Positions 10,309-34,119 of a DNA stretch of 36,427 bases are shown one piece after another (position 1 is the stretch's first letter; each line of letters begins with the position of its first letter). The translations under genes and the position numbers were made by a program. Source of the stretch: Candidatus Eisenbacteria bacterium (GTDB lineage: Bacteria > Eisenbacteria > RBG-16-71-46); NCBI GenBank assembly GCA_020847735.1, contig JADLBL010000021.1, forward strand, positions 190,059-226,485, written 5' to 3'. The notes under the pieces were generated by a model. It saw only the letters and a list, made by a program, of their open reading frames with translations, ran no database searches and was not told where the DNA came from.

Positions 10309-10337
10309 TCCCCTCCACCGCCCCTTCGAGGTGCAGC

Positions 10338-14564: not shown

Positions 14565-14584
14565 TCCACCAGCCCTCTCCACCC

Positions 14585-14616: not shown

Positions 14617-14632
14617 ACCCATCGAGGACGTG

Positions 14633-14986
14633 ATGAGTCTCGCACAGATGCTCGGCCTCGCGCAGCGCCCGTCGACGTCCGCGGAGGATTTCTCCGGCAC
14701 CGTCATCTATCGCTCGGAGGACGGCACGACCGACTTCAGCTTCCGGATCGCGCGTCACGGCGATAGGTACCGGATCTACATCCTCGACCAGCCCCTCTAC
14801 CACGGCAGGGCCGACGACCTCCACAGTACGCACCGCTACCACAGTCCGACCTCCGGACACTACATCTGTTGGGACGGCCGTCTGGAATCCCTCGACGACA
14901 TCCTCTACGTGGCCAGCGAGTGGGCCGAGCGCACGCTCCGCTACGTCCGCCACGGGACCCCTTTCGACAATCGGAGGACCAGATGA
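14633..14986 (+). CDS. Putative E2-like small protein partnered with JAB-E1
   Basis: 117 residues from ATG 14633 (GAGGA at 14624-14628); the frame is open further upstream through a Pro/Gly-rich stretch, so a longer form is possible. The order is FSFRIARHGDRYRIYILDQP, then HSTHRYHSPTSGHYICWD with a single Cys79, then a final helix LYVASEWAERTLRYVRHG. Paired His residues before a lone Cys, followed by a Trp-containing helix, resemble divergent bacterial E2-type conjugating folds. The stop overlaps the start of the JAB-E1 gene (ATGA), which indicates tight coupling. That an E2-like enzyme would accept a ubiquitin-like protein from an E1 is family knowledge. The E2 assignment here is an inference from motif layout and operon position. 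Confidence 0.5.
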   Translation: MSLAQMLGLAQRPSTSAEDFSGTVIYRSEDGTTDFSFRIARHGDRYRIYILDQPLYHGRADDLHSTHRYHSPTSGHYICWDGRLESLDDILYVASEWAERTLRYVRHGTPFDNRRTR

Positions 14987-19810: not shown

Positions 19811-20803
19811 ATGCCTCGACTACCCAGCAACATGATCAAGCGCGGAAGGGTGTTCTACTTCCGGCAGTTGGTCGGCGGCCGTGACCGACGCATCTCGCTC
19901 GGGACCGACTACGACGAGGCACGTCGCCGACTTCGTTCTTTGAAACGCGATGGTGTGCCACAAGCCTCCGGAACCGTCGACGACGCGGCGCGGAGGTGGC
20001 TTTCGTCGTACGTCCCCACCGTGCGCGGGCCGCGGGACGAGCGGCTCGCCGGGCAGCGCGTCAGGGACTACCTGGCAAGGTTCCTCGGCCACAAGCTCCT
20101 GGGGCGCCTCGGTGCTGACGACATCCGGGCGTACCGGCTCTGGCTCGAGAAGCAGCACCTGAGCCCGCAGTCGGTGAAGCACGTGCTCTCGGACCTGCGG
20201 TGCATGCTCAACTGGTGCGAGGACTCAGGGCTCGTGGAGCGCTCGCCATTCCCGCGGCGCGTCCTGCCGAGGATCCAGGAGCGGGCACCGGACCGGCTGT
20301 CGGATCAGGAGGTTGAGAAGGTGTGCGGCCTGGCCGACCCCTACGGGTTCATCTGCAGGGTGCTCGTGCAGACGGGGCTCCGGTGGGGGGAACTGGTCCG
20401 GGCCACGACCGCGGACCTCGCGGGTGGGATCCTCGTCGTCCACCTGACCAAGTCGGGGAAGGTGCGGCGCGTGCCGCTGCCGCCGGGTCTGCATGCCGAG
20501 CTGCGGACGCGCGTGGGGAAACTCTCGCCGCTCAAGTGCGCGGACGGGTTTGCCCTCCAGGTGCGGAAGCGGACCGGGATCGATCGCTTCCACGCGCACC
20601 AGCTGCGGCACTCGTTCGCGTGCCGGTGGCTGGAGGCGGGCGGTTCGCTCGCGGCGCTGCAGGAGATCCTGGGCCACGCCTCGATCGTCACGACGCAGCG
20701 GTACGGGCGTCTCGGCGAGGCGCACGTGCAGGCGGAAGCGCAGAGGATTCAGGGACAACTCGGCACACCACACGGCACACCTGCCTTGCACCACAGCCGC
20801 TAA
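19811..20803 (+). CDS. Tyrosine recombinase / integrase
   Basis: 330 residues from ATG 19811. An N-terminal arm-binding-like region (RGRVFYFRQLVGGRDRRISLG) is followed by a SAM-like core-binding domain (about 55-150). The catalytic domain has Arg191 (TGLRWGE), Lys214 (LTKSGKVRR), His263-x-x-Arg266 (HQLRH), His289 (LGHAS) and Tyr298 (TTQRYGR). All six hallmarks are intact, so the enzyme should be active. Its stop is 19 bp from the 5' end of tRNA-Ser. Integrases beside a tRNA generally use that gene as attachment site. Here the integrase lies on the 5' side of the tRNA rather than beyond its 3' end, which is the less common arrangement. Confidence 0.9.
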   Translation: MPRLPSNMIKRGRVFYFRQLVGGRDRRISLGTDYDEARRRLRSLKRDGVPQASGTVDDAARRWLSSYVPTVRGPRDERLAGQRVRDYLARFLGHKLLGRLGADDIRAYRLWLEKQHLSPQSVKHVLSDLRCMLNWCEDSGLVERSPFPRRVLPRIQERAPDRLSDQEVEKVCGLADPYGFICRVLVQTGLRWGELVRATTADLAGGILVVHLTKSGKVRRVPLPPGLHAELRTRVGKLSPLKCADGFALQVRKRTGIDRFHAHQLRHSFACRWLEAGGSLAALQEILGHASIVTTQRYGRLGEAHVQAEAQRIQGQLGTPHGTPALHHSR

Positions 20804-20822
20804 GTGTTGTAAACACACGCAC

Positions 20823-20912
20823 GGAGAGGTGCGAGAGCGGCTGAATCGGGCGGTCTCGAAAACCGTTAAGGGCGCAAGCCCTTCGAGGGTTCGAATCCCT
20901 CCCTCTCCGCCA
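20823..20912 (+). tRNA. tRNA-Ser (anticodon CGA)
   Basis: A 90-nt cloverleaf with acceptor GGAGAGG (20823-20829) pairing with CCTCTCC (20902-20908), discriminator G and encoded CCA. The anticodon loop CTCGAAA gives anticodon CGA at 20857-20859. The long variable arm (AAGGGC GCAA GCCCTT) is typical of serine tRNAs. The T-arm is GAGGG TTCGAAT CCCTC. It is a likely integration site for the neighbouring element. Confidence 0.95.
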
Positions 20913-21372
20913 GCTTGCGCGGAAAAGCCGCAGAAACCGCTTGGAACGGCCCTGGTCCTGAGGATCGGGGCTGTTTCCGTTGAGGGCAGGAGCGGTCAGG
21001 CGAGGACCCGAGAGGACGGTCAAGGGGTACCCCCGGGGTACCCCGCCGGGTTGCCGCAGAGGACGACCCTGTGACCTGGCGATGCAGGACGGGGCCCCGA
21101 CCCTGGCATCCGCCCGAGGATTGGTCACCCTACCGTCCCCTCCAACGGGATTCGAACGCAAGACCCCACCGAAGCCACCGTCGGAAAGAGTCGACCAAAG
21201 TCGGAAGGACAAGGACTTAGGCGGGACACCGGCGGCGGGGACCAACAAGAGTAGACGCTCTACGGGGACAGTTCGGGGACAATTGAGGGACAGCAGAACA
21301 CCAAGTCCCCAGAGACGCCTGAGGCTCTCCGCTGGCCGCACCCCCTCGGCTTCGCCTTGCGGCCACCTCTTA
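20913..21372. other. Repeat-rich non-coding interval between tRNA-Ser and IS21 element
   Basis: No gene is supportable here. Visible structures are: two copies of the palindrome GGGGTACCCC at 21024-21033 and 21035-21044; the dyad GTAGA-CGC-TCTAC (21251-21263); three tandem 11-bp units resembling GGGGACAGTTC (21264-21296); and an 8-bp inverted repeat TGGCCGCA/TGCGGCCA (21333-21340, 21358-21365). It may contain attachment or transfer sites of the element to the left. Confidence 0.5.
21368..21372 (+). repeat. Target-site duplication TCTTA (left copy)
   Basis: TCTTA immediately left of the TG terminus is repeated immediately right of the CA terminus at 23705-23709. A 5-bp duplication is within the range known for IS21 elements. 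Confidence 0.85.
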
Positions 21373-21422: not shown

Positions 21423-21515
21423 TGAGGGAGGCTGTGGGCTCCGATAGCCTGCCGCCCGTCGCGAGCGCGGATGAACCGCGCCGCCGCCGGGAGGCGAAGG
21501 AGGATGATCGGAGCC

Positions 21516-22895
21516 ATGGCCAGACATCGAGTGCAGGTGTTGCGCGCCGCAGGCAAGACGCTGAAGCAGATCGTGGCGGAGACCGGGGTGTCGCAGTCGA
21601 GCGTGCAGCGGATCGGGCTGGAGCCGCCGCTCGAGACGGTCGCCGACCTGGTGCGGGTCGGGCGGCGCGGGGTGGGGCGGCCGAGCGTCGCCGAGCCGTG
21701 GCGCGACCGGGTGGCCGCCGTGCTCGCGGCTGAGCCGGAGCTGCCGACGGTGGAAGTCCTGCACCGGATGCGCGAGGAGCGTTACGCGGGCGGGAAGACA
21801 GCCCTCTACGAGCTGGTGCGCGAGTTGCGGCCGCATCCGACGACGCCACTGGTGCGCTTCGAGGGTGTGGCGGGCGAGTTCTCGCAGCACGACTTCGGGC
21901 AGGTCGAGGTGCGCTACGCCGACGGCGGCCACGAGCGCGTGCATTTCTTCGTGTCGCGACTGAAGTACTCGCGCTGGGTGGACGTTCGGCTGGTCGAGAA
22001 CGAGGGCGTCGAGTCGCTGGTGCGGAGCCTGCTGGCCGGCTTCGCGAGCTTCGGCGGCGTGCCGCTGGTGGCGGTGTTCGACAACCCCAAGACGGTGGTC
22101 CTGAGCCGCGAGGGCGGGCGGATCCAGTGGAACGACACGTTCGGCCAGACGGCGCTCGACTACCGCTTCGCACCGGAGCTGTGCACGCCGCGGCGCGGGC
22201 AGGAGAAGGGCTCGGCCGAGAACCTGGTCGGGTTCGTGAAGAACGGCTTCTTCAAGGTGCGGCGCTTCCACGATCACGAGGATATGGTCGCGCAGCTTGC
22301 CGCCTGGCATGTCGAGGTGAACACGATGCGGCCGTGTCGCGCCACGGGCGTGACGCCGGCGGCGCGGATCGAGGCCGAGCGCGAGCGGCTGCGGCCGCCG
22401 GCGATTGACCCGAGCGAGTACGCGCTGCGCTTCTCGGTGTTCGTCGGCCCGACGGGGCTGGTCAGCTTCCAGGGCTACCGCTACTCGATGCCGCCCGAGG
22501 CGATCGGCATCCCCGGGATGCTGTGGCTCTACCCGGAGCGGGTGCGGATCGTCGCCGGGCGCTTCGAACGCGAGCACGGCCGCGTGCCCGAGCAGGGCAA
22601 GGACTCGATCCATCCCGAGGACCGCACGCGGCGGCTGGCGCAGGTGGCCGGCAAGCGCGGGCGGCTGTACCTCAAACGCCAGGAGATCCTCGACCTGGGA
22701 CCCGCGGCCGAGGCGTTCCTCACCGAGATCGTCCACCGCCATCGCTTCACCTGGCAGGGCGAGGTCGAGCAGCTCCACGGCGCCCTCGTCCAACACGGGC
22801 CGGCGGCGCTGCACCGCGCGCTCGCCGCGGCTCACGCGCGCGAGCTCTACGGCGCCCCGCACGTGCTGCGACTGCTGGCGAAGGAGGTGGCGTGA
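21516..22895 (+). CDS. istA: IS21-family transposase IstA
   Basis: 459 residues from ATG 21516; ATGs at 21471 and 21504 are in frame, and AAGGAGG at 21497-21503 favours 21516. The N-terminal helix-turn-helix is LRAAGKTLKQIVAETGVSQSSVQRI. The retroviral-integrase-type core has Asp126 (SQHDFGQVEV), Asp189 (AVFDNPKT) and Glu235 (KGSAENLVGF), the DDE triad that catalyses strand transfer. A C-terminal beta-barrel-like domain follows (GYRYSMPPEAIGIPGMLWLY). Its stop overlaps the istB start (ATGA), the usual IS21 coupling. The frame is intact and probably active. Confidence 0.92.
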   Translation: MARHRVQVLRAAGKTLKQIVAETGVSQSSVQRIGLEPPLETVADLVRVGRRGVGRPSVAEPWRDRVAAVLAAEPELPTVEVLHRMREERYAGGKTALYELVRELRPHPTTPLVRFEGVAGEFSQHDFGQVEVRYADGGHERVHFFVSRLKYSRWVDVRLVENEGVESLVRSLLAGFASFGGVPLVAVFDNPKTVVLSREGGRIQWNDTFGQTALDYRFAPELCTPRRGQEKGSAENLVGFVKNGFFKVRRFHDHEDMVAQLAAWHVEVNTMRPCRATGVTPAARIEAERERLRPPAIDPSEYALRFSVFVGPTGLVSFQGYRYSMPPEAIGIPGMLWLYPERVRIVAGRFEREHGRVPEQGKDSIHPEDRTRRLAQVAGKRGRLYLKRQEILDLGPAAEAFLTEIVHRHRFTWQGEVEQLHGALVQHGPAALHRALAAAHARELYGAPHVLRLLAKEVA

Positions 22896-23737
22896 TGCAC
22901 GCGCTCGATCTCGACGGCATGCTGCGCCGGCTGCACCTGCCCACCGTGCGCCGGCTCTACCCCGAGTGCGAGCAGCGGGCGGAGACGGAAGACCAGTCCT
23001 ATCGCGACTTCCTCGCCACGCTGATCGCCGAGGAGGTCGCCCACCGCGCCCAGACTCGCATCGAACGCTCGGTTCGCAAGGCCCGCTTCCCGTTCCTGCG
23101 GACCATCGAGGACTTCGACTTCACCTTCCAGACCTCGGTGCGCCTGCAGCTGCTCGGCAGCTACCTCGGGCCCGAGCTCGTGACCGAGGGCCGCAGCCTC
23201 GTGCTATGCGGGCCCTCGGGCACCGGCAAGACCCACCTCGCGATCGCCGTCGCCTACCGCGCCATCCAGAACGGCTACGAGGCGTTGTTCACGAGCGCCG
23301 CCGGCATGATCGAGGACCTCTCGAGCGCTTCACGTCGCGGCGAACTCGCGCGCGCGCTCGCGTACTACACGCATCCGCCCGCGCTCGTGATCGACGAGGT
23401 CGGCTACCTGACCGTCGGCGGCGACGCGGCGAACCTGATGTTCCAGGTCGTCAACGAGCGCTACCTGCACCGGCGCCCGATGTTGTTCACTACCAACAAG
23501 CCGCTGGCGGCGTGGGGGCTGGTGCTGCACGACCCGGATCTCGCCGAGGCGATCCTCGATCGCGTCCTCGAGCGCGGTCGGCTGGTCGAGCTCCGCGGTG
23601 CGTCGTATCGTACCCGCCACCTCAAAGCCGTTGACCACCGGAGCGCGGCTCCCGAAGTGGTCAGAATATCCGGAAATCAGCGGTCAGACTTCCCGGAACC
23701 CACATCTTACATTCACGCATTCTGCGCTCGAAAGTGA
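22895..23737 (+). CDS. istB: IS21-family helper ATPase IstB
   Basis: 280 residues from ATG 22895. Walker A is LCGPSGTGKTH (Lys112) and Walker B ALVIDEVGYL (near 167), with an arginine-finger region NKPLAAWG ... ILDRVLERG. It is an AAA+ protein of the DnaA/DnaC class that assembles on target DNA and activates IstA. The frame continues through the right terminal repeats and ends 33 bp outside the element, so about 10 C-terminal residues are encoded by flanking DNA. The core is intact. Confidence 0.92.
   Translation: MHALDLDGMLRRLHLPTVRRLYPECEQRAETEDQSYRDFLATLIAEEVAHRAQTRIERSVRKARFPFLRTIEDFDFTFQTSVRLQLLGSYLGPELVTEGRSLVLCGPSGTGKTHLAIAVAYRAIQNGYEALFTSAAGMIEDLSSASRRGELARALAYYTHPPALVIDEVGYLTVGGDAANLMFQVVNERYLHRRPMLFTTNKPLAAWGLVLHDPDLAEAILDRVLERGRLVELRGASYRTRHLKAVDHRSAAPEVVRISGNQRSDFPEPTSYIHAFCARK
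23657..23704 (-). repeat. IS21 right end with two tandem terminal repeats
   Basis: In inverted orientation, outer copy TTCCGGGAAGTCTGACC (ending at 23698) and inner copy TTTCCGGATATTCTGACCAC (23657-23676). The IstB reading frame runs through this end. Confidence 0.85.
23705..23709 (+). repeat. Target-site duplication TCTTA (right copy)
   Basis: Right copy of the 5-bp duplication; joining the two flanks restores ...GGCCACCTCTTACATTC... as the pre-insertion sequence. Confidence 0.85.
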
Positions 23738-23800: not shown

Positions 23801-26602
23801 TTGGACAGTGGGGCTCATTTCCACAAGTGTGACCTGCAGGTCCACACGCCGCGCGACTTGAACTGGCAGGGTGCAGGCGCGACCTCGGAAGATGAGCGAA
23901 AGGCGTACGCAGCTGAGTTCGTGGCGGCATGCCGCGCCAGGAAACTTCAGGCTGTCGGGATCACCGACCACCACGATGTCGCCTTCATCCGGTACATCCG
24001 TGAAGCCGCGGCTCAAGAGACAGACGAGCAGGGCAAACCGCTGCCGGACCTGGAGCAGCTGGTGGTGTTCCCTGGCATGGAGCTCACCCTAGGGATTCCG
24101 TGCCAGGCTTTACTCTTGTTCGACTCGGACCTCCCAACCGAGTTCCTGCCGCTTGCCCTGCCCGCGCTAGGCATCACGCCAGCCGACGATGCGGCAGAGA
24201 AGCATGCTCAGATCAAGAAGCTCGACATAATGAGCTTCCAAGCCCTCTATTCAGCGCTCGACAAGATTGAGCCCTTACGTGGGCGGTTCATCGCGTTTCC
24301 GAATGTTGACGATCAAGGCTACCAAAGCCTCATCCGTAAGGGGTTCGAGAAACACTATGCAGATATGCCTTGCGTCGGTGGGTACGTTGACGGTCTCCTG
24401 CCCGTACCGCCGAAGGGCGACGGCATGCGGCGGATTACGGGTGGGCAAGACAAGAACTGGGGGAATAAGGCAATCGGTGTCTTTCAAACATCCGACTGCC
24501 GGAGTCGTGCGCTCGAGACCCTGGGGACACATGCAACCTGGATCAAGTGGGCCCGGCCAACCGCCGAAGCGCTGAGGCAGGCATGTCTCGCGAGCCACTC
24601 TCGGATTACGCACAGCGCTCCGACGGTGCCGCCGGTTCAGATCACTCGGGTTGAAGTAACAAACAGCAAGTTCTTGGGTCCGATTACGCTCGACTTCAAT
24701 CCCCAGTACAACGCGATTATCGGCGGAAGAGGCACAGGGAAGTCGACGATTCTCGAGTACATCCGGTGGGCGCTCTGCGACCAGCCAGTCCAAGCTGATG
24801 ATCCCGCAGAGCTGGCGGATTACGAGCGCCGCCGTCAAGGGCTCATCGACGGAACTCTCCTGCCGTTGGACGCAGTGGTTGATGTCGTGTTCCTGCTCAA
24901 CGGCGTTTCCCACACTGTTCGTCGAAAGGCGTCAGGCGAACTGACTCTTCGTATCGGAGATGCCGCCTTTCAAGGGTGCACCGAGAAGGATGTGCGAGAA
25001 CTGCTTCCGATTCGTGCCTACAGTCAGAAACAACTGAGCGCCGTTGGCGCGCGGCTCGATGAGTTGCGACGGTTCGTCCATGCCCCAATTCAGCCTGAGC
25101 TCGATGCGGCATCCGAGGGCATCGACAACGTAGCCGTGAACCTGCGCGGTGCATTCGAGCGGCTCGTGCGACATCGCGAACTTAGCGCCGAAATCAGCGC
25201 ACATGACATCGAACGCCGTTCACTCGGCGAACAGGTTGCACACCTACGCGCCACGCTCGCTGGCCTCCCTGAGGCCGACGCGGCAATCATCGATAGGCAA
25301 CCGAGCTACGAGGCCGAGCAGCGTGCTATTCAGACGCTTGAGCGTGAAGCGGCCGCAGCCAAGACGGCGCTCCAGTCAGCCCAAGCGGAACTGTCGCGCG
25401 TTCCTTCTCCTTTGGCCCAGAACGAATCAGCGAACAAGGCGCTGGTTGAGGGCGCACACGAGGCCTTCGGTCAATGGGTACGTCAGGCGAAGGACAGAAT
25501 CGATGCGTTAGTTCTGGAGCTTGCGACTCCAGCCGCGGGCTCTTCATTGAAGCAGTACGTCGAGCTGCTTGGTCAATGGCGTCAGCGCCGCGATGCACAC
25601 CGAGTGGAGTACGACGACGCCGCATCGCGAGCAAGCGTGCACGAGGAGACGCTTCGCGGTATCCAGGGGCTCGAAGGACGTTTGGCCGACCTCAATGCTC
25701 TTGCTGATCAGAAGAGCGATGATCTCAAGCGTTTGGGGGATCCGAATGCTGAAGTCTTGCGGCTTCGTGCTGAATGGAGGGATGCACACGCGAATCGCGC
25801 GACTCTGCTGGAGAAGCAATGCTCGGCGCTTACGTCGATAGCAGGATCTCGTCTCAAGGCCAGTCTTCGCAGGTCTGGTGACACGGAACCGCTGGCTGAG
25901 AAGCTGAAGCAGGTCATGAAGGGAACGACGATACGCGGCGATCGGATTGACTCCCTTGTGGAATCTCTCGGGAGTGCAAGTAACCCGTTCGGGGCTTGGC
26001 AAGACGTGCTGAGTGAACTGCTAGAGCTTGCTTGGGTTCATGTCGAGGAGGAAGCCACCGCGCAGTTGCCGTCCGTCCCGCGGCTCGACGCGGCCGGGTT
26101 CACCCAAAAGGCAAAGGTCGCCATGGCCCGCCAGCTTGAGCCGGACGCGTGGGTTGATCTGTTGCTCTTTGACGTGAAGGACCTGCCTGTATTTGAGTAC
26201 ATGGTGCGCCCTGGCGACTTCCTACCGTTCGCGGACGCCTCTCCAGGCCAACAGGCCACGGCGCTGCTTTCGATCTTGCTGCTGGAGGGTGGGCCGCCAC
26301 TGCTAGTCGACCAACCGGAAGATGACCTCAATATGCGGGTCATTAACGAGATTGTGACGACCCTCTGGCAAGCAAAAATCCAGAGGCAGATCATCTTCAG
26401 CAGCCACAACGCGAACCTCGTGGTGAATGGGGACGCAGAGCTCGTTACTTGCTGCGACTATCGGACAAGCGCAACGGAACACGGCGGCCGAATTAAACTC
26501 ATGGGCGCTATCGACGTCCCGATGATCAATAGAGAGATTGCAGAGGTAATGGAAGGCGGCGAGGCAGCGTTCAAGTTGCGTTACAAGAAGTACGGCTTCT
26601 AG
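23801..26602 (+). CDS. PHP-domain / SMC-like ATPase (TrlF-like)
   Basis: 933 residues from TTG 23801 (AGAGAGG just upstream). The N-terminal PHP-type phosphoesterase has CDLQVHTPRDLN (about 10-21) and GITDHHD (53-59) with metal-binding His/Asp residues. The ATPase head has Walker A IIGGRGTGKST (307-316), a Gln-containing central hinge, long coiled coils at about 430-760, an ABC signature-like SPGQQATALLSILLLEGG (about 813-830), Walker B LLVDQPEDDLN and the H-loop SSHN. I recall this architecture from the TrlF family of AAA-like ATPases found in defence islands. PHP domains hydrolyse phosphoesters, so a DNA- or RNA-directed nuclease gated by ATP is plausible. The IS21 element sits 96 bp upstream and may have separated it from its promoter. 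It converges on the ubiquitin-like operon, with only 38 bp between stops. Confidence 0.85.
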   Translation: MDSGAHFHKCDLQVHTPRDLNWQGAGATSEDERKAYAAEFVAACRARKLQAVGITDHHDVAFIRYIREAAAQETDEQGKPLPDLEQLVVFPGMELTLGIPCQALLLFDSDLPTEFLPLALPALGITPADDAAEKHAQIKKLDIMSFQALYSALDKIEPLRGRFIAFPNVDDQGYQSLIRKGFEKHYADMPCVGGYVDGLLPVPPKGDGMRRITGGQDKNWGNKAIGVFQTSDCRSRALETLGTHATWIKWARPTAEALRQACLASHSRITHSAPTVPPVQITRVEVTNSKFLGPITLDFNPQYNAIIGGRGTGKSTILEYIRWALCDQPVQADDPAELADYERRRQGLIDGTLLPLDAVVDVVFLLNGVSHTVRRKASGELTLRIGDAAFQGCTEKDVRELLPIRAYSQKQLSAVGARLDELRRFVHAPIQPELDAASEGIDNVAVNLRGAFERLVRHRELSAEISAHDIERRSLGEQVAHLRATLAGLPEADAAIIDRQPSYEAEQRAIQTLEREAAAAKTALQSAQAELSRVPSPLAQNESANKALVEGAHEAFGQWVRQAKDRIDALVLELATPAAGSSLKQYVELLGQWRQRRDAHRVEYDDAASRASVHEETLRGIQGLEGRLADLNALADQKSDDLKRLGDPNAEVLRLRAEWRDAHANRATLLEKQCSALTSIAGSRLKASLRRSGDTEPLAEKLKQVMKGTTIRGDRIDSLVESLGSASNPFGAWQDVLSELLELAWVHVEEEATAQLPSVPRLDAAGFTQKAKVAMARQLEPDAWVDLLLFDVKDLPVFEYMVRPGDFLPFADASPGQQATALLSILLLEGGPPLLVDQPEDDLNMRVINEIVTTLWQAKIQRQIIFSSHNANLVVNGDAELVTCCDYRTSATEHGGRIKLMGAIDVPMINREIAEVMEGGEAAFKLRYKKYGF

Positions 26603-26640: not shown

Positions 26641-28110
26641 CTAGAGATCAGCGAACGGCATGTCCGCGTTGTCGCCTTGACCCTCAAAGGGGTTGCAGTG
26701 GCGACATCTGGGATCGCGGTGTCGCGGCACCTCTGCGAGCGTACCCGGAATCATGTCGTAGTACAGCTCCGTCACCGCGCGCCTTGAGAGTATGAAGATC
26801 AAGTCTTGCAAGCGTAGTTCCACCAGGGCCGACGTTAAGCTGTTCATCGGCATCACGCTGGGTGCGTGTTCGGGGCCGAGACCTTCAACGTAGCCGCGGT
26901 GTCGATCTGCTGCTCTATCTTCCACGGTGCGAAAGGCCTTGCTCAATTTCATTGAGTCGAGATGCCCGGAGCACCACAGACACGCGTGGCCTGGACCAAC
27001 CGTGTTGATGCGGACGGCCCCGTTCTCGACGACCCCGTGTTCGCAATGCGGGTCATCCTCTGCGGTTGAGGCGATGACGCTGCCACCGTCGATTACCGGA
27101 ATGAAGTGCGCGTAGGAGAGGCGATTCAGAAAGTGGCGAGGCCGAGGATCGTCCACGAGCGACAGAATGATGTCCGCATCTAGAAGTCTGGGCAGTTCTG
27201 ATGACCGACGAAGATCGCGATCGCTGTGACGTACGCGGATGTCTCGCTGTAGCGCAAATGTACGGAGCGCCGCGGCAAGTACCGGCGCCTTGTGTCGCCT
27301 CGCACGCGCATCGTCGAAGGTATAGACGGACGATCGGTTGATGTTGACGTCCGTGATGACGTCGGGGTCCCAGAGGCTCACTGCCCCCACGCCCCAACGG
27401 GCGATGTGATCTGCGACGATCGATCCGACGCCACCGTTGCCGGCAACCACGATATGTAGGTCGGCCAACTGACGCTGCCCTTCTCTTCCGAAGACTCGAA
27501 TGGAGCGGTCCGCGAATTCCGGGACGTCCTCGCCTTCGGCGCGAGGATGGTCGATCGTCCTCTGCGCTTCGAAGGCATCGGCCGCAATCGTCCTCACTCT
27601 ATGAATCGGATCGAAGACGCTCTTGCCATCGACTTGAGACCACCGAATGGCGCGACCGCGCAAGGCGCCGCGCGACGCGACGAGAGATAGAAGTGGAGCC
27701 CCAGGTGGCAGAAGACCGACACCAAGGAAGCACTCGCCCAGATCCTTGTCGGTGGAGTCATCCGTGACACTCCAGACCGGTGGGCCGCTTCCGCCCGGGT
27801 GGGTATGCAACACGCAGAGTCCAACGAGGCCATCCTGTCGGCGCGCGATGTCCACAGCGCGGTTCCAGTACTTCGCCGTCAGACTGACGTTGCCCCACTT
27901 GTCGTGCTCCAGATCACCACGCTCTGGGGTGATGGCCTTCTGAACAAGAAATGTAGCGCGCGTGGCTCCGCTGCTCCGGCGCACCAAAGCAAGCAGGGCT
28001 CCCTCACGCGGAGCAAACTCGAGCGCCCCGCCCCAAACCGCTGCCCGTGTGGGAGCAGTCCAGGCGATTTCAGCCTGCAGGTCGGTTGCAGCGGCGGTAG
28101 GTGCGGCCAC
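26641..28110 (-). CDS. JAB-E1 fusion of ubiquitin-like operon
   Basis: 489 residues from GTG 28110, 3 nt after the E2-fold gene stop. The N-terminal JAMM domain has Glu36, His102-x-His104 and Ser114-x-x-Asp117; the His-Ser spacing is two residues longer than the classical motif. The ThiF/E1 domain has GNGGVG (224-229), WDPDVITDVNINR (247-259) and two zinc-type Cys pairs, Cys377/Cys380 and Cys469/Cys472. E1 enzymes activate the C-terminus of a ubiquitin-like protein with ATP, while JAMM domains process or remove it. I see no obvious extra Cys in the crossover-loop region to act as a thioester-forming nucleophile. It is the last gene of a three-gene operon. Confidence 0.88.
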   Translation of the reverse strand: MAAPTAAATDLQAEIAWTAPTRAAVWGGALEFAPREGALLALVRRSSGATRATFLVQKAITPERGDLEHDKWGNVSLTAKYWNRAVDIARRQDGLVGLCVLHTHPGGSGPPVWSVTDDSTDKDLGECFLGVGLLPPGAPLLSLVASRGALRGRAIRWSQVDGKSVFDPIHRVRTIAADAFEAQRTIDHPRAEGEDVPEFADRSIRVFGREGQRQLADLHIVVAGNGGVGSIVADHIARWGVGAVSLWDPDVITDVNINRSSVYTFDDARARRHKAPVLAAALRTFALQRDIRVRHSDRDLRRSSELPRLLDADIILSLVDDPRPRHFLNRLSYAHFIPVIDGGSVIASTAEDDPHCEHGVVENGAVRINTVGPGHACLWCSGHLDSMKLSKAFRTVEDRAADRHRGYVEGLGPEHAPSVMPMNSLTSALVELRLQDLIFILSRRAVTELYYDMIPGTLAEVPRHRDPRCRHCNPFEGQGDNADMPFADL

Positions 28111-28113
28111 GGT

Positions 28114-28518
28114 CTAGTTCTTTCTTAGAAACCGGCCTTCCAAGGTCGCAAGGTGGGTTTCGAGGGAGTCGCGGGTCGGGTCAAACTGTGGGCCCTTGGG
28201 TCCCCAGGAGAACTTCATCCACTTCTCCCCAAGTAGATCGGCATCAGCGTTGGTTGCCTGTGGCTGGCCCTTCGACTCCATTACGGTCAACGTCCGAGGC
28301 TTGATGTAGAAACCGGAGGTATCGGGAACGGCGTCGGGATAGATGGCCGGCACGAGGAAAGCGAGAGCCTCGATCACGTTCGACGAGTAGACCGCCGCGA
28401 CGGGCAGGGTGTACGGCTCGAGGATGACGGCGACTTGTTCGCCGACATCCTCGCACCGAACCTTCGATCCGGGTCGACTGAGCCGACCAGCTTCATCTCG
28501 GATTCGCTCGCGGCTCAT
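28114..28518 (-). CDS. E2-fold protein (Prok-E2_E-like) without catalytic-position Cys
   Basis: 134 residues from ATG 28518, overlapping the ubiquitin-like gene by 4 bp (ATGA). The stretch LPVAAVYSSNVIEALAFLVPAIYPDAVPDTSGFYIKPRT fits the beta-sheet and YPxxxPD turn of bacterial E2 family E, with MKFSW ... DSLETHLATLEGRFL as the C-terminal part. The only cysteine is Cys22, before the fold core; the region after the YPDAVPD turn, where an E2 normally holds its catalytic Cys, has none. Either another residue (a Ser, for example) carries the tag as an ester, or the protein is an adaptor. Family-level assignment is good; mechanism is inference. Confidence 0.75.
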   Translation of the reverse strand: MSRERIRDEAGRLSRPGSKVRCEDVGEQVAVILEPYTLPVAAVYSSNVIEALAFLVPAIYPDAVPDTSGFYIKPRTLTVMESKGQPQATNADADLLGEKWMKFSWGPKGPQFDPTRDSLETHLATLEGRFLRKN

Positions 28519-28811
28519 ACGCGCATGCCCGCCGAGTAGTCGGTCCCTTTGAGCATCGCCCGGAAGTGGTCGCCGGGCTTCACGTGGACCGTGCTCGTCA
28601 GCGGGATCTCGTCTCCGACCTGCCCCCCGTGCTCGTTGTACAGGCGGTACTTCTCCGGGTCGAGCCCGACTCGCTCGAGAATCTGGGCCGCGGTGAGGTC
28701 CTCGCCGTGCGGCTCGACGTGGCCCTTCCGGTCTCCAACGTGGAAGAAGGGTCCGCCATCGCCGGGCGACTGAGCCGCTTCCTTGGCGGCCGGGTTGTTC
28801 TGAACGCTCAT
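28515..28811 (-). CDS. Ubiquitin-like beta-grasp protein (multiubiquitin-like, single domain)
   Basis: 98 residues from ATG 28811 (GGAAAGAGG upstream on its strand). After an acidic/polar leader of about 22 residues, the pattern FHVGDRKGHVEPHGEDLTAAQILERVG ... DEIPLTSTVHVKPGDHF matches the bacterial multiubiquitin-type beta-grasp fold: two strands, a helix, then strands. The C-terminus is AMLKGTDYSAGMRV, with no diglycine. Either the tail is trimmed by the JAMM domain, or a different residue is conjugated. It is first in an operon with an E2-fold protein and a JAB-E1, the arrangement of described bacterial ubiquitination-like operons. Confidence 0.8.
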   Translation of the reverse strand: MSVQNNPAAKEAAQSPGDGGPFFHVGDRKGHVEPHGEDLTAAQILERVGLDPEKYRLYNEHGGQVGDEIPLTSTVHVKPGDHFRAMLKGTDYSAGMRV

Positions 28812-28877
28812 AGCCTCTTTCCTTGCAGGGCCTTGGTGAATCGAGGCTGCCGGCCCACGTGAGCTGCCTCTGCGGGC

Positions 28878-28907
28878 ATTGTCGCGCGATTGGTCGCGGT
28901 CTGTCAA
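28878..28907 (-). promoter_or_regulatory. Candidate promoter of the ubiquitin-like operon
   Basis: On the minus strand, TTGACA (28907-28902), an 18-bp spacer and GACAAT (28883-28878), about 65 bp upstream of the ubiquitin-like start. The -10 box is a 4-of-6 match. The palindromic operator lies 28 bp upstream of the -35 box. Confidence 0.45.
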
Positions 28908-28935
28908 GTAGACACATGCATATCGCATCGTCAGA

Positions 28936-28954
28936 TGAACAAACTGTTTGTTCA
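28936..28954. promoter_or_regulatory. Perfect 19-bp palindromic operator
   Basis: TGAACAAAC-T-GTTTGTTCA has 9-bp perfect arms around one central base. It ends one base before the -35 box of the XRE gene promoter and lies in the divergent intergenic region shared with the ubiquitin-like operon. Palindromes of this size are typical targets of dimeric XRE regulators, so the neighbouring regulator is the likely ligand. Confidence 0.7.
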
Positions 28955-28955
28955 C

Positions 28956-28991: not shown

Positions 28992-29342
28992 GTGCCAAGA
29001 ACAACCGCCCCAGCACTCTACCGACAGATCGGCGATCGGATCGCTGCGAAGCGGCGCGAGCGCCGTCCGCTGATGAGCCAACAAGGACTCGCAACCGCGG
29101 CAGGCGTGTCGCGAGCGACCATCGTGAACATCGAGCGCGGGCGCCACCGAGTGCAGCTCCACGTTCTCTACGACATCGCCCGCGCACTCGGGGCAGGCGT
29201 CCAGGATCTACTCCCGAGGCTCTCCGCCTCGGCGCCGCCGCCGCTTCCCCAAGACATCCTAACTAAGCTAAAGCCCGATGAAGTGGCTTCGGTAGGCCGC
29301 TTGCTTGAGGACACTCACGGAGGCCAACATGGCGAGCAATAG
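28992..29342 (+). CDS. XRE-family transcriptional regulator
   Basis: 116 residues from GTG 28992; the frame is open further upstream but crosses the operator and promoter. The helix-turn-helix MSQQGLATAAGVSRATIVNIERGRH (about 28-52) is a canonical XRE domain, followed by a dimerisation-like helix and a Pro-rich linker. Its 3' end overlaps the ImmA/IrrE gene by 14 bp. XRE/ImmA pairs usually form a repressor cleaved by its partner protease on a stress signal. It probably binds the palindrome 38 bp upstream and so represses itself, and perhaps the divergent ubiquitin-like operon. Confidence 0.85.
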   Translation: MPRTTAPALYRQIGDRIAAKRRERRPLMSQQGLATAAGVSRATIVNIERGRHRVQLHVLYDIARALGAGVQDLLPRLSASAPPPLPQDILTKLKPDEVASVGRLLEDTHGGQHGEQ

Positions 29343-29856
29343 GATTGCGAGAGCCGCACATGAGGTGCTGCGTGAAACCGACACGACGAAGGCGCCGGTA
29401 CCTGTCTTCGATATTGCCCGAAGGCTTGGGGTTGTTCTTCGCGTCGGCCCTCTTCCTGAAGAGCTGAGTGGTTTCTTAGTCCGCGAAGGCGGGAAAGTGG
29501 TCATCGGAGTGAATAGCCTTCATCCAAAGCAGCGGCAAGCGTTTACCGTGGCTCACGAACTTGGGCATTTGAGGCTTCACCGCGACGATAGCTTCGTCGA
29601 TCGAGGGTTTTCGTTCTACTTTCGAAACCAACGATCAAGTCAGGCTGTCGATCAGAAAGAAGTCCAGGCAAATCAGTTTGCCGCTGAGCTGCTGATGCCA
29701 GCGCATCTGCTAGAGCCCCTGCTCAACGGAAGGTCTGTCGACGTCGGCGATGAGCATTTCATCAGTTCTCTCGCCAAGCAGTTCCAAGTGAGCAGCCAGG
29801 CAATGACCTTCCGACTCATAAACCTGGGAAAGGCCAAGCGAGATACTGGAAACTGA
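29329..29856 (+). CDS. ImmA/IrrE-family zinc metallopeptidase
   Basis: 175 residues from ATG 29329 with GGAGG at 29319-29323. The zinc site is VAHELGHLRLH (His76-Glu77-x-x-His80), with a probable third ligand in EVQANQFAAELLMP, the hallmark order of the family. A C-terminal helical region (HFISSLAKQFQVSSQAMTFRL) is typical of the ImmA-type DNA- or protein-binding tail. Family members cleave XRE repressors to switch on the locus. It overlaps the XRE gene, which is the likely substrate. Confidence 0.88.
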   Translation: MASNRIARAAHEVLRETDTTKAPVPVFDIARRLGVVLRVGPLPEELSGFLVREGGKVVIGVNSLHPKQRQAFTVAHELGHLRLHRDDSFVDRGFSFYFRNQRSSQAVDQKEVQANQFAAELLMPAHLLEPLLNGRSVDVGDEHFISSLAKQFQVSSQAMTFRLINLGKAKRDTGN

Positions 29857-29913
29857 ATCGCGGCATCCCGGTCATCAAATCTTCGAGCATTCCCACCGAT
29901 AGGAGTCGACCGC

Positions 29914-31314
29914 ATGACCAATGCCTCCGCGGGTAAGGATCGCGGATCCGGGCGCTGGACGAACCGATCCGTCAAGGCGTTGGCACAGGACCGCGACCCA
30001 GTGCAACTCATTATCGCCCTCGCTCGCCAGACGGCGATTGAGGCCCTCGACAAGGGATGGATAGGGCCTCCATTTGATCCGATTTCGCTCGCCGAAATCC
30101 TGGGCCATGAAGTCGCCGCGAATACCGACATTCGCGACGCTCGAACGGTGCCCGCCGCTCGCGGCAGAGTTAGGATCGAGTTCAATCCGAGCCGGCCTCG
30201 TGGTCGAATGCGTTACTCGATTGCGCACGAGATCGCCCATACGCTATTCCCTGATGTAGGGGAACGAATCAGGAATCGCGCTGCACACGCCGAGCTCCAA
30301 GGCGATGACTGGCAGCTTGAGGCCCTATGCAACATCGCTGCGGCAGAACTGCTCATGCCTTACGGTGCTCTAGCCATGCAGCGCCCGCAGGACTTGACTG
30401 CTCATGCGATTCTCGAGCTTCGCAAGCGCTTTGATGTGTCCACTGAAGCCCTTGTTATTCGTCTTGCTGAAACGAGCGAGGGGCGTGTCGCCGCGTTCTG
30501 CGCTTCTCCAACCTCTACCGCAGTCGAGGGAGTTAAGTACCGCCTTGACTACGTAATCGGGTCAAACGGCTGGCGGCCAGGCGGACGAAGCACTCGGTTA
30601 CCGGACGACTCGGCGATCCGTGAGTGCACGGCGATTGGCTACTCTGCACGTGGCTTGGAGACGTGGTGGGAAGACTTGGGCAAGATGCAAGTCGAAGCAA
30701 TAGGCATTCCGCCATATCCAGGGAGCGGGTTGCCGAGAGTCGTTGGATTGTTGAGGGTGTCCGATCGCACTCACTCGCATCCCGCGATCAAGTACGTTCA
30801 CGGCAACGCGACGGATCCACGCGGCAGTGGTCTTCGGATGGTTGTGCAAGTCGTCAACGATAAGACTGCGAACTGGGGTGGTGGAGGCTTCGCAAGTGCG
30901 GTGCGAAGGGCCTGGCCAGTAGTTCAGCGGGACTTCAAGGAATGGGCTGAAGGTCAGCGCTCGGCATTCAAGCTGGGAGCTGTTCGCCTGACTGAAGCGG
31001 ACGACCGGACGCTTGTCGCCAGCATTGTGGCGCAGCATGGCTACGGTCCCTCGCCAAGACCGCGTGTGCGCTACACAGAGCTTCGGGAGGGATTACGCCA
31101 AGTGGCCCGCCTCGCGATCGATCGTGGAGCGACGATCCATTTACCCCGCATCGGAACGGGACAAGCTGGCGGGAGTTGGAACGTCGTCCGCGACTTGGTC
31201 GTCGAGACGCTAATCTCCGCGGGACTTCACGTAACGGTCTACGATTTGCCCGGATCATCGGCGCCCGCCGAACCCCAACTTGGCTTGAGCCTCAGCCAGA
31301 CGGAAGACGCCTAA
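29914..31314 (+). CDS. ImmA/IrrE-like peptidase fused to a macrodomain
   Basis: 466 residues from ATG 29914 (AGGAG upstream). The N-terminal part has the zinc site YSIAHEIAHTLFPD (His105-Glu106-x-x-His109) and CNIAAAELLMPYGAL, followed by an ImmA-like helical tail to about 190. From about 292 a macrodomain begins: KYVHGNATDPRG, VVNDKTANWGGGGFASAVRRAWP and LPRIGTGQAGGSW, resembling Poa1p-like macrodomains that bind ADP-ribose or remove it from targets. The roughly 100 residues between the two are unassigned. A second zinc peptidase directly after the first is unusual. With a putative ADP-ribosyltransferase two genes downstream, the macrodomain could be the neutralising or reversing enzyme; this is inference. 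Confidence 0.82.
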   Translation: MTNASAGKDRGSGRWTNRSVKALAQDRDPVQLIIALARQTAIEALDKGWIGPPFDPISLAEILGHEVAANTDIRDARTVPAARGRVRIEFNPSRPRGRMRYSIAHEIAHTLFPDVGERIRNRAAHAELQGDDWQLEALCNIAAAELLMPYGALAMQRPQDLTAHAILELRKRFDVSTEALVIRLAETSEGRVAAFCASPTSTAVEGVKYRLDYVIGSNGWRPGGRSTRLPDDSAIRECTAIGYSARGLETWWEDLGKMQVEAIGIPPYPGSGLPRVVGLLRVSDRTHSHPAIKYVHGNATDPRGSGLRMVVQVVNDKTANWGGGGFASAVRRAWPVVQRDFKEWAEGQRSAFKLGAVRLTEADDRTLVASIVAQHGYGPSPRPRVRYTELREGLRQVARLAIDRGATIHLPRIGTGQAGGSWNVVRDLVVETLISAGLHVTVYDLPGSSAPAEPQLGLSLSQTEDA

Positions 31315-31335
31315 CTCGACCTTAGTCAGGGCCGC

Positions 31336-33018
31336 ATGGCGAGACCTTCTACTCCGATACCTAGCCATCCTGCAGGGAGACAGACCGGCCTTCTGCCTGG
31401 GCAGCTGATTGTGCTGTCAGGGCCCGTGTCCGCCGGAAAATCAACGCTCGCTGCAACGTTGGCGGAGAAGTTCGGAGTCACGCACTTCAAGACCCACGAA
31501 ATGATCCAACGGTTGACGGGCGCCCCGTTGGATCGGGCCGCGTTGCAGAAGGCCGGCGAACGACTCGACCGCAAAACGAATGGCCGGTGGGTCGCTGCTG
31601 AGATCACCCGGGTCCTCGGGGAGATGTCCGATGCGAGCGGCTCATCCGTCGAATCGCGTCGAGTACTTGTCGACTCCTCGCGGCTGCTGAGCCAAATCGA
31701 AGCGCTCCGTCAGGCTTTCGGCCAGCGCGTCGTGCACATTCATCTCACTGCGCCCGAAGCAGAGTTGCGTCGCCGCTACCTCACGAGACGGACTGCAATG
31801 CGAGAGCTTCCGTCCTATGCAGCCCTGCGGAGAGATCGCACCGAGGCGGTAATTGACCGGTTGAAGGCGTCAGCCGACATCGTCATCGACACCCATCGCA
31901 ACACTCGCGATGACGTTGTCGTGCGTGTGGCATCGCAGCTTGGCTTTTACGGGCGAGGCTGTGAGCGATTGGTTGATGTTCTAGTCGGCGGCGAGTACGG
32001 CAGCGAGGGCAAAGGGCAAATCTCCGCCTATTTGGCCCCGGAGTACGACGTGCTTGTCCGTGTTGGTGGTCCCAATGCCGGCCATCAGGTATTCGAAGTG
32101 CCCACCCCTCGGACGTGGCACCACCTTCCCTCCGGTACCGCGCGCAACCCTCGCGCGCAAGTTGTCCTGGGACCGGGCGCGGTACTTCGGGTTCCGAACC
32201 TGCTGGCAGAAATTGCGAGTGCTGAGGTGTCCTACAAGCGACTCTCAATCGACCCGAAGGCAATGATCATCTCTGACGAAGACATTAAGGCGGAAACTGG
32301 GCTCAAGGCATCGATCGGTTCAACGGGGCAGGGGGTCGGATATGCAACGGCCCGAAAAGTTCTCCGCGGCGGCGGAACAGATCGAGTGCTTCTTGCCAAG
32401 GACGTCCCCGCACTCCGACGCTACGTTCGAGACGCCCTCGAGATACTTGAGAATGCGTACGCGAAGGGGCGCCGTGTCTTCTTGGAGGGAACGCAGGGTA
32501 CGGGGCTCTCCCTCCACCACGGAGAGTACCCACACGTTACATCGCGCGACACCACCGTAGGAGGGTGTCTTGGCGAGGCCGGGATTTCCCCGGCACGAGT
32601 GCGCCGAATCGTAATGGTCTGCAGGACCTATCCTATCCGGGTTCAAAGCCCGCCGGGGAAGACCTCAGGCAGAATGAGTCGCGAGCTGAAATGGGCGGAA
32701 ATCGCTCGGCGATCGCGCATTCCACTCAAGGAGCTGCGCAAGAACGAGCGCACCTCAACGACGAAAAGGAAACGACGCGTCGGTGAGTTCGACTGGGTCT
32801 TGATCCGAAGAGCGGCCTCGCTCAATGGCCCCACGGACATCGCGCTGACGTTTGCCGACTATATCGACGTCCAGAACCGGAAGGCGCGTCGATTTGATCA
32901 ACTCTCACCCGAAACCCTTCAGTTTATCGCAGAGCTTGAACGCGTGGCCTCCGCGCCCGTCTCCTTGGTGGCAACGAGATTCGCTTTCAGAAGCATCATC
33001 GACCGGCGAATGTGGTAG
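31336..33018 (+). CDS. Kinase-adenylosuccinate synthetase (PurA/PurZ-like) fusion
   Basis: 560 residues from ATG 31336. The N-terminal P-loop kinase (about 22-205) has LSGPVSAGKST (Lys35) and an LID-like RRRYLTRRTAMRE, like nucleoside-monophosphate kinases. From about 211 comes an adenylosuccinate-synthetase fold: VLVGGEYGSEGKGQ, VRVGGPNAGH (His250), WHHLPSG, IGSTGQGVGYATA, FLEGTQGTGLSLHHGEYPHVTSRDTT and the aspartate-binding-like TTKRKRR. In PurA the first motif is normally GDEGKG, with Asp as catalytic base; here it is Ser223. I recall phage PurZ enzymes, which act on dGMP to make 2-aminoadenine precursors, also departing from Asp at this point (not verified). The substrate may therefore not be IMP. 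It is unlikely to be the housekeeping purA, given the fusion and location. Confidence 0.82.
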   Translation: MARPSTPIPSHPAGRQTGLLPGQLIVLSGPVSAGKSTLAATLAEKFGVTHFKTHEMIQRLTGAPLDRAALQKAGERLDRKTNGRWVAAEITRVLGEMSDASGSSVESRRVLVDSSRLLSQIEALRQAFGQRVVHIHLTAPEAELRRRYLTRRTAMRELPSYAALRRDRTEAVIDRLKASADIVIDTHRNTRDDVVVRVASQLGFYGRGCERLVDVLVGGEYGSEGKGQISAYLAPEYDVLVRVGGPNAGHQVFEVPTPRTWHHLPSGTARNPRAQVVLGPGAVLRVPNLLAEIASAEVSYKRLSIDPKAMIISDEDIKAETGLKASIGSTGQGVGYATARKVLRGGGTDRVLLAKDVPALRRYVRDALEILENAYAKGRRVFLEGTQGTGLSLHHGEYPHVTSRDTTVGGCLGEAGISPARVRRIVMVCRTYPIRVQSPPGKTSGRMSRELKWAEIARRSRIPLKELRKNERTSTTKRKRRVGEFDWVLIRRAASLNGPTDIALTFADYIDVQNRKARRFDQLSPETLQFIAELERVASAPVSLVATRFAFRSIIDRRMW

Positions 33019-33046
33019 CGGCGCCCCTCTACCCGAAAGGACCTAG

Positions 33047-33679
33047 ATGCCGTTCGACTCGGAGGTCTTCGCAGCGCGAAGGCCCTACCTCTTTCACCTG
33101 ACGGCGCGAAGCAATGTGGCCCGCATTCGGGCTGCTCGTCGACTGCACAGCATGGTTGTCCTGGCGCGCAAGGCTGGCAGAGAGGATCTGTTGAACGTCC
33201 GGCGTCGGGAGCACGTTCAACTCAGCGTTCAGGGTAAAGCAGTGCACATCAGGGACCAAGCCCCACTTCACGAGAACAACATGTCCTTGGAAGACGGCTG
33301 GACATTCCCGCAGTTCGTGCGCGACCTCAACGAGCGCGTGTTCTTCTGGCCCGGGGGACTCTCAGGCCCAATTGCCCACGGACTCCGCCACTTTGCCCGG
33401 TATCGGGAAGAGCGCCCAGTGCTGCTGCGAATCCCCACCGATGGCCTCTTCGCTGCCAATAGCGGTGTGCGTCCACTCTATTGCCGCTACAACTCCGGAT
33501 CGCCCCGTTGGAGTCGCGGCGTAGCATCACCTCGCGGGCCGGCCACATTTGTGCCCTCTAATCAAGCGACGTTCTCACCATCCAGCGTGGTCGAGGTGGC
33601 TTTCATGCGTGGCGCCGTGCTACCCAATGGTTCGGAGGTCGGCAACGGCCCGTCTGGACCGTGGCGTCGTTTGTTCTAG
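33047..33679 (+). CDS. DUF7002 / DarT-like putative ADP-ribosyltransferase
   Basis: 210 residues from ATG 33047 (GAAAGGA upstream). It opens with YLFHLTARSNVARIRAARRLHS (His17), then IRDQAPL, a conserved-looking LNERVFFWPGG, and near the end SVVEVAFMRGAVLP (Glu183). A His in an LxHxT strand, a central FF strand and a late Glu match the layout of DarT-like and DUF7002 ADP-ribosyltransferase folds, which transfer ADP-ribose from NAD+ to DNA or protein. The macrodomain fusion two genes upstream would fit as its counteracting partner. The family match is from memory; the activity is inferred. Confidence 0.65.
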   Translation: MPFDSEVFAARRPYLFHLTARSNVARIRAARRLHSMVVLARKAGREDLLNVRRREHVQLSVQGKAVHIRDQAPLHENNMSLEDGWTFPQFVRDLNERVFFWPGGLSGPIAHGLRHFARYREERPVLLRIPTDGLFAANSGVRPLYCRYNSGSPRWSRGVASPRGPATFVPSNQATFSPSSVVEVAFMRGAVLPNGSEVGNGPSGPWRRLF

Positions 33680-33765
33680 TGCGGTCGAGCTGTTCCAGAC
33701 TCTGCACCGCACGCCTGGCCTTGGCCTTCCTACGCCGCTTCGACCGTTCCTGTCACACTCCTCAC

Positions 33766-34119
33766 ATGGTCCACTCCCAGCTTCAAGTCCGGCAGGTCGA
33801 ACTCCTCTGTTTCAAAGAGCCAGGTTCGGGGACGAACGCAAGAGGTCCGCCAGTTTGCGCTGAAGGCCACAGAATCCGCTTGGAACTCACCGGGCTCTTC
33901 GTCGCCGTGGCAACTGAGATCCCCAAGCTCCCGCAGGTCCGGGCGCCGGTGGAGGAGATCGAGCGGCTGCGCACGACTTGGATCACGCGCGGGCCAACTG
34001 CGTGGCCGGCGGAGTTGAAGAAGCTCCCGGGGATCTTCGGGGATTGTCTGCGATTGATCCGAAGTCTGACTCCAGCCCGAGCCGATCAGGTGATGAAGCT
34101 CGAAGCAGCCCTCGGCTAA
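33766..34119 (+). CDS. Small protein of unknown function
   Basis: 117 residues from ATG 33766; the frame is open upstream but that part has no gene-like composition. Third positions are G/C-rich, supporting real coding. The sequence has an RIRLELTGLFVAVATEIPKLPQV segment and a helical C-terminus LPGIFGDCLRLIRSLTPARADQVMKLEAALG. No family recognised and no clear ribosome site. It lies between the DUF7002-like gene and the helicase in the same direction. Confidence 0.5.
   Translation: MVHSQLQVRQVELLCFKEPGSGTNARGPPVCAEGHRIRLELTGLFVAVATEIPKLPQVRAPVEEIERLRTTWITRGPTAWPAELKKLPGIFGDCLRLIRSLTPARADQVMKLEAALG

Follow-up and report, generated by a model that had tools for sequence, protein, structure and literature searches.

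A gene cassette joining a kinase-PurZ fusion to the DUF7002 family recurs across bacteria and archaea and is probably an immune-type module

The window analysed here is the whole 36,427-nucleotide stretch of contig JADLBL010000021.1 (positions 190,059 to 226,485, forward strand) of a Candidatus Eisenbacteria bacterium (GCA_020847735.1). Three of its genes form a conserved unit: ImmA-macro, a fusion of a zinc peptidase and a macrodomain; kinase-PurZ, a fusion of an adenylate-kinase-like domain and a PurZ-type adenylosuccinate synthetase; and DUF7002, a predicted ADP-ribosyltransferase. Within this unit, kinase-PurZ and DUF7002 are the constant pair. The cassette looks like an undescribed system built from known folds, with a probable anti-viral role, and it is probably a horizontally moving module of immune type. 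A preliminary description of this DNA had grouped five co-directional, tightly spaced genes, and all five are indeed found on the + strand in the order XRE, ImmA, ImmA-macro, kinase-PurZ and DUF7002. The five-gene string was nevertheless rejected as the unit, since XRE and the separate ImmA do not recur in related loci, and the proposed XRE-ImmA switch was dropped from the module with them.

A plasmid search retrieved eight full-length kinase-PurZ fusions (43–48% identity) in Rhizobium, Agrobacterium, Sinorhizobium and Methylobacterium; phage PurZ aligns to the second half of the protein only. An alignment of these eight was used to scan 84,980 species genomes, yielding 293 relatives; the 80 best matches, which represent 79 loci, were retained. 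Plasmid and genome loci together make up the 87 kinase-PurZ loci on which the locus counts are based, and all of their open reading frames (ORFs) were scored with profiles. Full-length relatives show 43–61% identity. DUF7002 lies beside or close to kinase-PurZ in 85 of the 87 loci; the two without it are L077, which is at a contig end, and L083, which has an M48-like metallopeptidase in its place. ImmA-macro is present in 66 loci and the complete trio in 65, spread over 14 phyla including the archaeal Thermoplasmatota, Nitrososphaerota and Methanobacteriota, with median gaps within the trio of 5 and −4 bp. The preliminary description had made its proposal depend on the co-occurrence of the macrodomain fusion, kinase-PurZ and DUF7002 in other genomes, and these numbers bear out that co-occurrence strongly.

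The distance matrices of kinase-PurZ and the macrodomain protein correlate at 0.83 and those of kinase-PurZ and DUF7002 at 0.64, with 0 of 500 permutations reaching such values, although shared species history contributes to this agreement. Of 23 genomes carrying the system, 22 have a single DUF7002 copy; the family is absent from all 14 control genomes and was not found in phage isolates. Among 72,556 plasmid records it occurs in ten, eight of these being exactly the eight kinase-PurZ plasmids, and solo DUF7002 genes lie on two plasmids. ImmA-macro is missing from 21 loci. Of the 12 such genomes tested, 11 have no macrodomain copy elsewhere (no genome-wide NADAR search was made), and the twelfth, from Sorangium, carries a stand-alone macrodomain elsewhere. 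Within the phylum of the window, DUF7002 and the full kinase-PurZ fusion were found in one of 47 genomes, this one only. The kinase-PurZ tree requires 20 phylum-label changes against a minimum of 13, which is consistent with, but no proof of, some transfer between phyla.

Asp13 is the catalytic aspartate of PurA, and its replacement by serine is a hallmark of phage PurZ. The altered catalytic residue noticed earlier in the window protein is this same substitution (Ser223), and serine stands at this position in all 81 kinase-PurZ proteins and in all 65 viral-contig PurZ. The window protein matches Adenylsucc_synt (E 4e-54) and NCBIfam PurZ (E 3e-57), the latter with 193.9 bits, below the curated cut-off of 300 bits. 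In the tree, the fusions form one clade (support 0.955), sister to viral PurZ (0.986) and separate from Asp-type PurA. Kinase-PurZ is a sister clade of the curated phage PurZ family and not a member of it. A housekeeping PurA function was rejected, as the Eisenbacteria genome and eight others keep a separate full PurA. The kinase domain is matched in PDB profile searches by AK9 and the AdkA-like 3LW7/3H0K (E 1e-11 to 1e-12), and Foldseek aligns its AlphaFold2 (AF2) model (pLDDT 92) to AMP-bound 3LW7 with a TM-score of 0.79 by target length. The domain would suit phosphorylation of an adenylate-like monophosphate such as the monophosphate of 2-aminoadenine (Z). Several Pseudomonadota (L080, L081, L082, L083, L084 and L090) have the kinase domain once more, as a stand-alone copy beside the operon.

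In the phage Z route, MazZ converts dGTP to dGMP, PurZ converts dGMP to dSMP and the host converts dSMP to dZMP, while DatZ lowers dATP (PMC8342488, PMC12884076). The same kinds of enzyme appear to gather at kinase-PurZ loci. A MazG-like NTP-pyrophosphohydrolase is encoded in 9 of 11 actinobacterial loci and PurB in 4 of the 11, with another PurB elsewhere in each of those four genomes; in kinds of enzyme, the actinobacterial versions would amount to a near-complete Z pathway. The Rhizobiales form is without ImmA-macro and has an HD protein related to YfbR/Atu1052, together with a 450-aa protein without a Pfam match that, read by eye, is PEP-synthase/ATP-grasp-like. No Z-specific polymerase was noted among the recurrent neighbours of the bacterial loci, whose neighbour clusters were not exhaustively named. 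The earlier guess of a modified purine nucleotide is well supported.

Related arrangements were also seen. The viral contig L097 (IMGVR_UViG_3300033067_002286, 3792–12078) encodes kinase-PurZ but no DUF7002; the neighbours of the fusion there are a DNA polymerase, a Sak4-like protein and a dNMP kinase, and the contig may come from a phage that has a Z genome and a fused PurZ. On S. medicae pMl5 (L012, 5296–8057), a solo PurZ without the kinase domain occurs with two other proteins, one a divergent HD protein and one that resembles dCTP deaminase and probably contains a membrane segment; the set looks like a related bacterial PurZ cassette with no DUF7002. A cluster of FolE, PurA-like, PurB, QueE, IMPDH-like and QueC proteins on R. 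leguminosarum pCC283b_4 (L013, 5363–11617) looks like a 7-deazapurine nucleoside pathway with a PurA homologue.

ImmA-macro matches Pfam Peptidase_M78 with E 1e-11. The macrodomain scores below the Pfam cut-off (E 0.0012) but aligns clearly, over residues 290–447, with PDB entries 2AFC, 2FG1 and 5E3B at E 1e-27 to 1e-30; PHROG 335 'phosphatase' matches it as well. Both histidines of the HExxH motif are invariant in the 64 aligned members, its glutamate is present in 63 of them, and the equivalent of Gln85 of SCO6735 is present in all 64. According to PMC9411070, SCO6735 requires Gln85 for the hydrolysis of thymidine-ADP-ribose.

Across 76 DUF7002 sequences, ten residues (H17, R53, R69-D70, W101, Y119, N149, G151, F168 and E183) are invariant. 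With the AF2 model of DUF7002 (pLDDT 93.7), Foldseek places DarT structures at ranks 1 to 7 in the PDB, the best being DarT1 8BAQ (E 8e-3), followed by KptA/Tpt1. The PDB profile search likewise gives DarT1 as best match, and no DarT/DUF4433 match was obtained in Pfam, NCBIfam or PADLOC. Since the similarity is distant, DUF7002 was assigned to the ADP-ribosyltransferase superfamily and not to DarT itself; model and profile together predict a distant DarT-like ADP-ribosyltransferase. The DarT-like character first suggested for this protein is thus retained at the level of fold and profile and lost at the level of family sequence matches. Its invariant Arg-Asp, Asn and Glu resemble the catalytic set of DarT1, an enzyme that modifies the guanine N2 amine (PMC11543638). 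The short C-terminus of the window protein was checked as a possible frameshift and this was rejected; as it is common to L049 and the Bacteroidota copies, it defines a DUF7002 subtype. The window kinase-PurZ groups instead with Gemmatimonadota, Myxococcota and Acidobacteriota, and this discordance suggests that the transferase may have been swapped.

Taken as a whole, the cassette is best explained, if tentatively, by a two-enzyme core of Z-nucleotide synthesis and ADP-ribosylation, to which most lineages add a macrodomain-peptidase reader or eraser. Kinase-PurZ would join a guanine nucleotide, most likely dGMP, to aspartate to give the succino form of 2-aminoadenylate; host PurB, or a dedicated second PurB in some Actinobacteria, would finish Z-monophosphate, and the fused adenylate-kinase-like domain would phosphorylate it. 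DUF7002 would transfer ADP-ribose from NAD+ to a 2-amino-purine. The acceptor would be the Z nucleotide or else nucleic acid with Z or G, a choice modelled on the action of DarT1 at the guanine 2-amino group. This activity is proposed because 2-aminoadenine exposes the same 2-amino edge as guanine and because of the invariant Arg-Asp, Asn and Glu of DUF7002. As kinase-PurZ and DUF7002 are the constant pair, the transferase may act on, or be switched by, the Z nucleotide. In most lineages ImmA-macro would read, and probably also erase, the ADP-ribosylated product, and its peptidase would give or tune the output. Conserved linkage, intact catalytic motifs, the PurZ-type serine and, in some lineages, dedicated MazG-like and PurB partners can be read from the sequences, whereas the substrates, the acceptor, the order of steps, the output and the anti-phage role are inferred. 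It is possible, and we put it forward with some reserve, that cells widely possess an immune system in which 2-aminoadenine nucleotides are made, these or nucleic acid with them are ADP-ribosylated, and a protease-linked macrodomain reads the result.

Several observations weigh against the Z-nucleotide model. The likeness between DUF7002 and DarT is weak (Foldseek E 8e-3, TM-score 0.38; profile E 0.05), and the catalytic residues of DUF7002 and DarT1 were paired by eye, so that E183 is a presumed counterpart of DarT1 E152, matched without superposition. At the ribose-contacting Arg position of PurA, kinase-PurZ has Arg in 49 of 81 proteins and Lys in 21, while viral-contig PurZ mostly has Lys, a split that makes GMP rather than dGMP a possible substrate. 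The actinobacterial MazG-like protein is closest to DR2231, the Rhizobiales HD protein matches Atu1052/YfbR and gives no match to DatZ, and the window's own locus is without a MazG, PurB or HD gene. The links on which known macrodomains of the SCO6735 class have been assayed are to thymidine or protein rather than to purines, and it is NADAR enzymes that remove guanine links. The defence genes near the loci, moreover, were noted without a matched control set.

The cassette could also be a DarTG-like toxin-antitoxin pair. DUF7002 would then ADP-ribosylate DNA or RNA, ImmA-macro would act as antitoxin by removing the mark, and kinase-PurZ would have a side role, for instance in providing a toxin-regulating nucleotide. 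In favour of this are the fold of DUF7002, matched best by DarT, the membership of the macrodomain in the class able to reverse DarT marks, its conserved Gln, and the adjacency and co-evolution of the genes. However, the 21 loci without a macrodomain (with no copy elsewhere in 11 of the 12 such genomes tested) and the solo DUF7002 genes indicate that a toxin needing a macrodomain antitoxin does not fit all members, and the constant partner is kinase-PurZ, not the macrodomain. This explanation is unlikely. The DarTG logic of the preliminary description survives in the placing of a DarT-like transferase beside a macrodomain, and fails at the same loci and plasmids.

A sharper form of the Z-nucleotide model is Thoeris-like signalling. 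Here the joint product of kinase-PurZ and DUF7002 would be a free purine messenger carrying ADP-ribose; ImmA-macro would be its receptor, would leave it intact and would respond by activation of the protease. Macrodomains of TM-macro ThsA effectors do bind ADP-ribose-derived signals (PMC11204291), and ImmA-macro, unlike the two constant enzymes, can be replaced, which is often the case for effectors. This version seems quite unlikely, as the macrodomain retains the hydrolysis Gln of SCO6735, which points to erasing; in addition, no small-molecule product is known and no effector is recognised in the Rhizobiales form.

A further alternative is a cellular Z-DNA or dZTP system, in which a rise in dZTP caused by the module would lead to faulty phage DNA or protect the cell's own DNA, and DUF7002 would control only a protein or the NAD pool. 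In its favour, the PurZ clade and the MazG, PurB and HD partners correspond in kind to the toolkit of Z phages, and expressing the Z-cluster is toxic to E. coli (PMC8342488). The lack of a recurring Z-specific polymerase, within the named neighbour clusters, speaks against it, and the absence of DUF7002 from the phage isolates makes the ADP-ribosyltransferase a cellular novelty; we regard this system as distinctly improbable. Nucleic-acid repair in the manner of KptA/Tpt1, with DUF7002 moving a phosphate to NAD+, the macrodomain clearing ADP-ribose-1''-phosphate and the kinase re-phosphorylating ends, fits the second-placed fold matches and the PHROG 'phosphatase' hit, but is highly improbable given an adenylate-kinase-like rather than polynucleotide-kinase-like kinase, no ligase and a PurZ left unexplained.

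Compared with known systems, the cassette shares with the phage Z-cluster (PurZ, DatZ, MazZ, DpoZ) the Ser for Asp13, a sister clade and, in some lineages, MazG-like, PurB and HD-nucleotidase-like partners. Unlike that cluster, it is chromosomal or plasmid-borne in bacteria and archaea, has PurZ fused to an adenylate-kinase-like domain, shows no polymerase among the recurrent neighbours named and adds an ADP-ribosyltransferase and usually a peptidase-macrodomain protein. As in DarTG (DarT1-NADAR, DarT2-DarG), a predicted DarT-like transferase adjoins a macrodomain of the class erasing DarT marks, but DUF7002 is outside the DarT family by sequence, and the macrodomain is fused to an ImmA peptidase and dispensable. 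With Thoeris systems carrying TM-macro ThsA it has in common an NAD+-using enzyme and a macrodomain protein as possible reader; it differs in its ADP-ribosyltransferase fold, with no TIR match in any operon protein, in a peptidase replacing the membrane effector and in the added purine enzyme. The XRE and M78 peptidase pair heading the window operon recalls the CapH-CapP switch of CBASS and ImmR-ImmA, yet no CD-NTase or Cap effector was found among the locus genes scanned and the pair is outside the conserved unit. The macrodomain belongs with the SCO6735/BT1257 hydrolases in being of the ALC1-like subclass with the essential Gln, and differs from them in its fusion to an M78 peptidase within an operon. 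Of the defining features examined, the cassette lacks some that mark DarTG, Thoeris and CBASS, and it scores below the PurZ family cut-off. No description of the combination (DUF7002, PurZ with defence, or adenylosuccinate synthetase with macrodomain) was found in open-licence papers, most preprints and subscription papers being outside the search.

The features of the window are listed in Table 1. The XRE ORF overlaps the listed ImmA ORF, and the following gaps are 57 bp (ImmA to ImmA-macro), 21 bp (ImmA-macro to kinase-PurZ) and 28 bp (kinase-PurZ to DUF7002). XRE and the stand-alone ImmA are probably a regulatory add-on outside the conserved core, with XRE as candidate local regulator and ImmA as its candidate partner. 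The module had originally been extended to position 34119; the ORF at 33661–34119 was rejected as a sixth gene because it has neither a family match nor a homologue in any related locus. A promoter and terminator scan gave no signal exceeding shuffles.

Table 1. Coordinates of the cassette genes and their domains in the window
Feature	Position	Strand	Evidence
XRE/CapH-like helix-turn-helix repressor	28992-29342	+	HTH_31 E 3e-10; CapH E 5e-8
Stand-alone ImmA/CapP-like peptidase	29329-29856 (listed ORF from 29305; likelier start ATG 29329)	+	Peptidase_M78 E 8e-22; CapP (PADLOC) E 1.5e-34
Core gene 1, ImmA/IrrE-type zinc peptidase (M78) and ALC1-like (SCO6735/BT1257-class) macrodomain fusion, 466 aa	29914-31314	+	Pfam, PDB matches
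Core gene 1, M78 peptidase domain, HEIAH, residues 85-184	30166-30465	+	Pfam
Core gene 1, macrodomain, residues 290-450, Gln374 in AQHGYG, GTGQAGGSW loop	30781-31263	+	PDB sequence match, family alignment
Core gene 2, adenylate-kinase-like kinase and PurZ-type adenylosuccinate synthetase fusion, 560 aa	31336-33018	+	Pfam/NCBIfam/PHROG PurZ
Core gene 2, kinase domain, residues 1-213, P-loop GPVSAGKS	31336-31974	+	PDB profile, AF2 model, Foldseek
Core gene 2, PurZ domain, Ser223 in GGEYGSEGKG	31975-33018	+	Family profiles, alignment, tree
Core gene 3, DUF7002, predicted DarT/KptA-superfamily ADP-ribosyltransferase, 210 aa	33047-33679	+	PF22531 E 4e-29

The nearest neighbours of the loci include type I restriction genes, AbiEii, BilD and CapP-like genes. 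In the window, the unit is flanked by a JAB-ThiF operon and TrlF on one side and a UvrD-like helicase on the other. A tyrosine recombinase (19811–20914) adjoins tRNA-Ser(CGA). On another contig (C3, about 37998–38057), next to a second integrase, 60 bp of the 3' half of this tRNA are repeated exactly. The repeat and the second integrase suggest an integrative island holding the cassette, with the repeats as likely attachment sites; the window ends at the contig end, and the join of the island across the two contigs was not seen directly. Between the tRNA and the defence-like genes lies an IS21-like IstA/IstB pair (21471–23737, read from the ORFs), and the TrlF-family AAA-like ATPase extends over 23801–26602 (NCBIfam E 1e-147, over cut-off). 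The JAB-ThiF (E1-like) fusion is on the − strand at 26641–28955 with adjoining small ORFs, perhaps ubiquitin-like, and a second JAB-ThiF-looking set is present near 15 kb (14303–16494).

Elsewhere, the operon of Chloroflexota and archaeal loci has after it, or nearby, a conserved protein of about 245 aa (MKNQYFGDxNDYKKYGLLR near its start); this protein lies downstream of DUF7002 in L037, L039, L040, L043, L046, L047, L056, L062 and L072 and is a possible fourth component. Beside the kinase-PurZ locus of R. leguminosarum pRLN3 (L005, 2564–5098), an 844-aa adenosine-deaminase-domain protein possibly belongs to a neighbouring defence system.

To our knowledge, 2-aminoadenine synthesis has been described only from phages. 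A deep PurZ clade in bacteria and archaea that is locked to DUF7002 would show that cells use Z chemistry. If the proposed reading is true, Z-nucleotide chemistry would here be in use outside viruses for the first time, and a new ADP-ribosylation acceptor would be added. Modified-base DNA and nucleic-acid ADP-ribosylation would thereby be linked, since the extra 2-amino group of Z is the atom modified by DarT1-type enzymes. The cassette also gives a testable function for DUF7002, an ADP-ribosyltransferase-like family without an assigned function.

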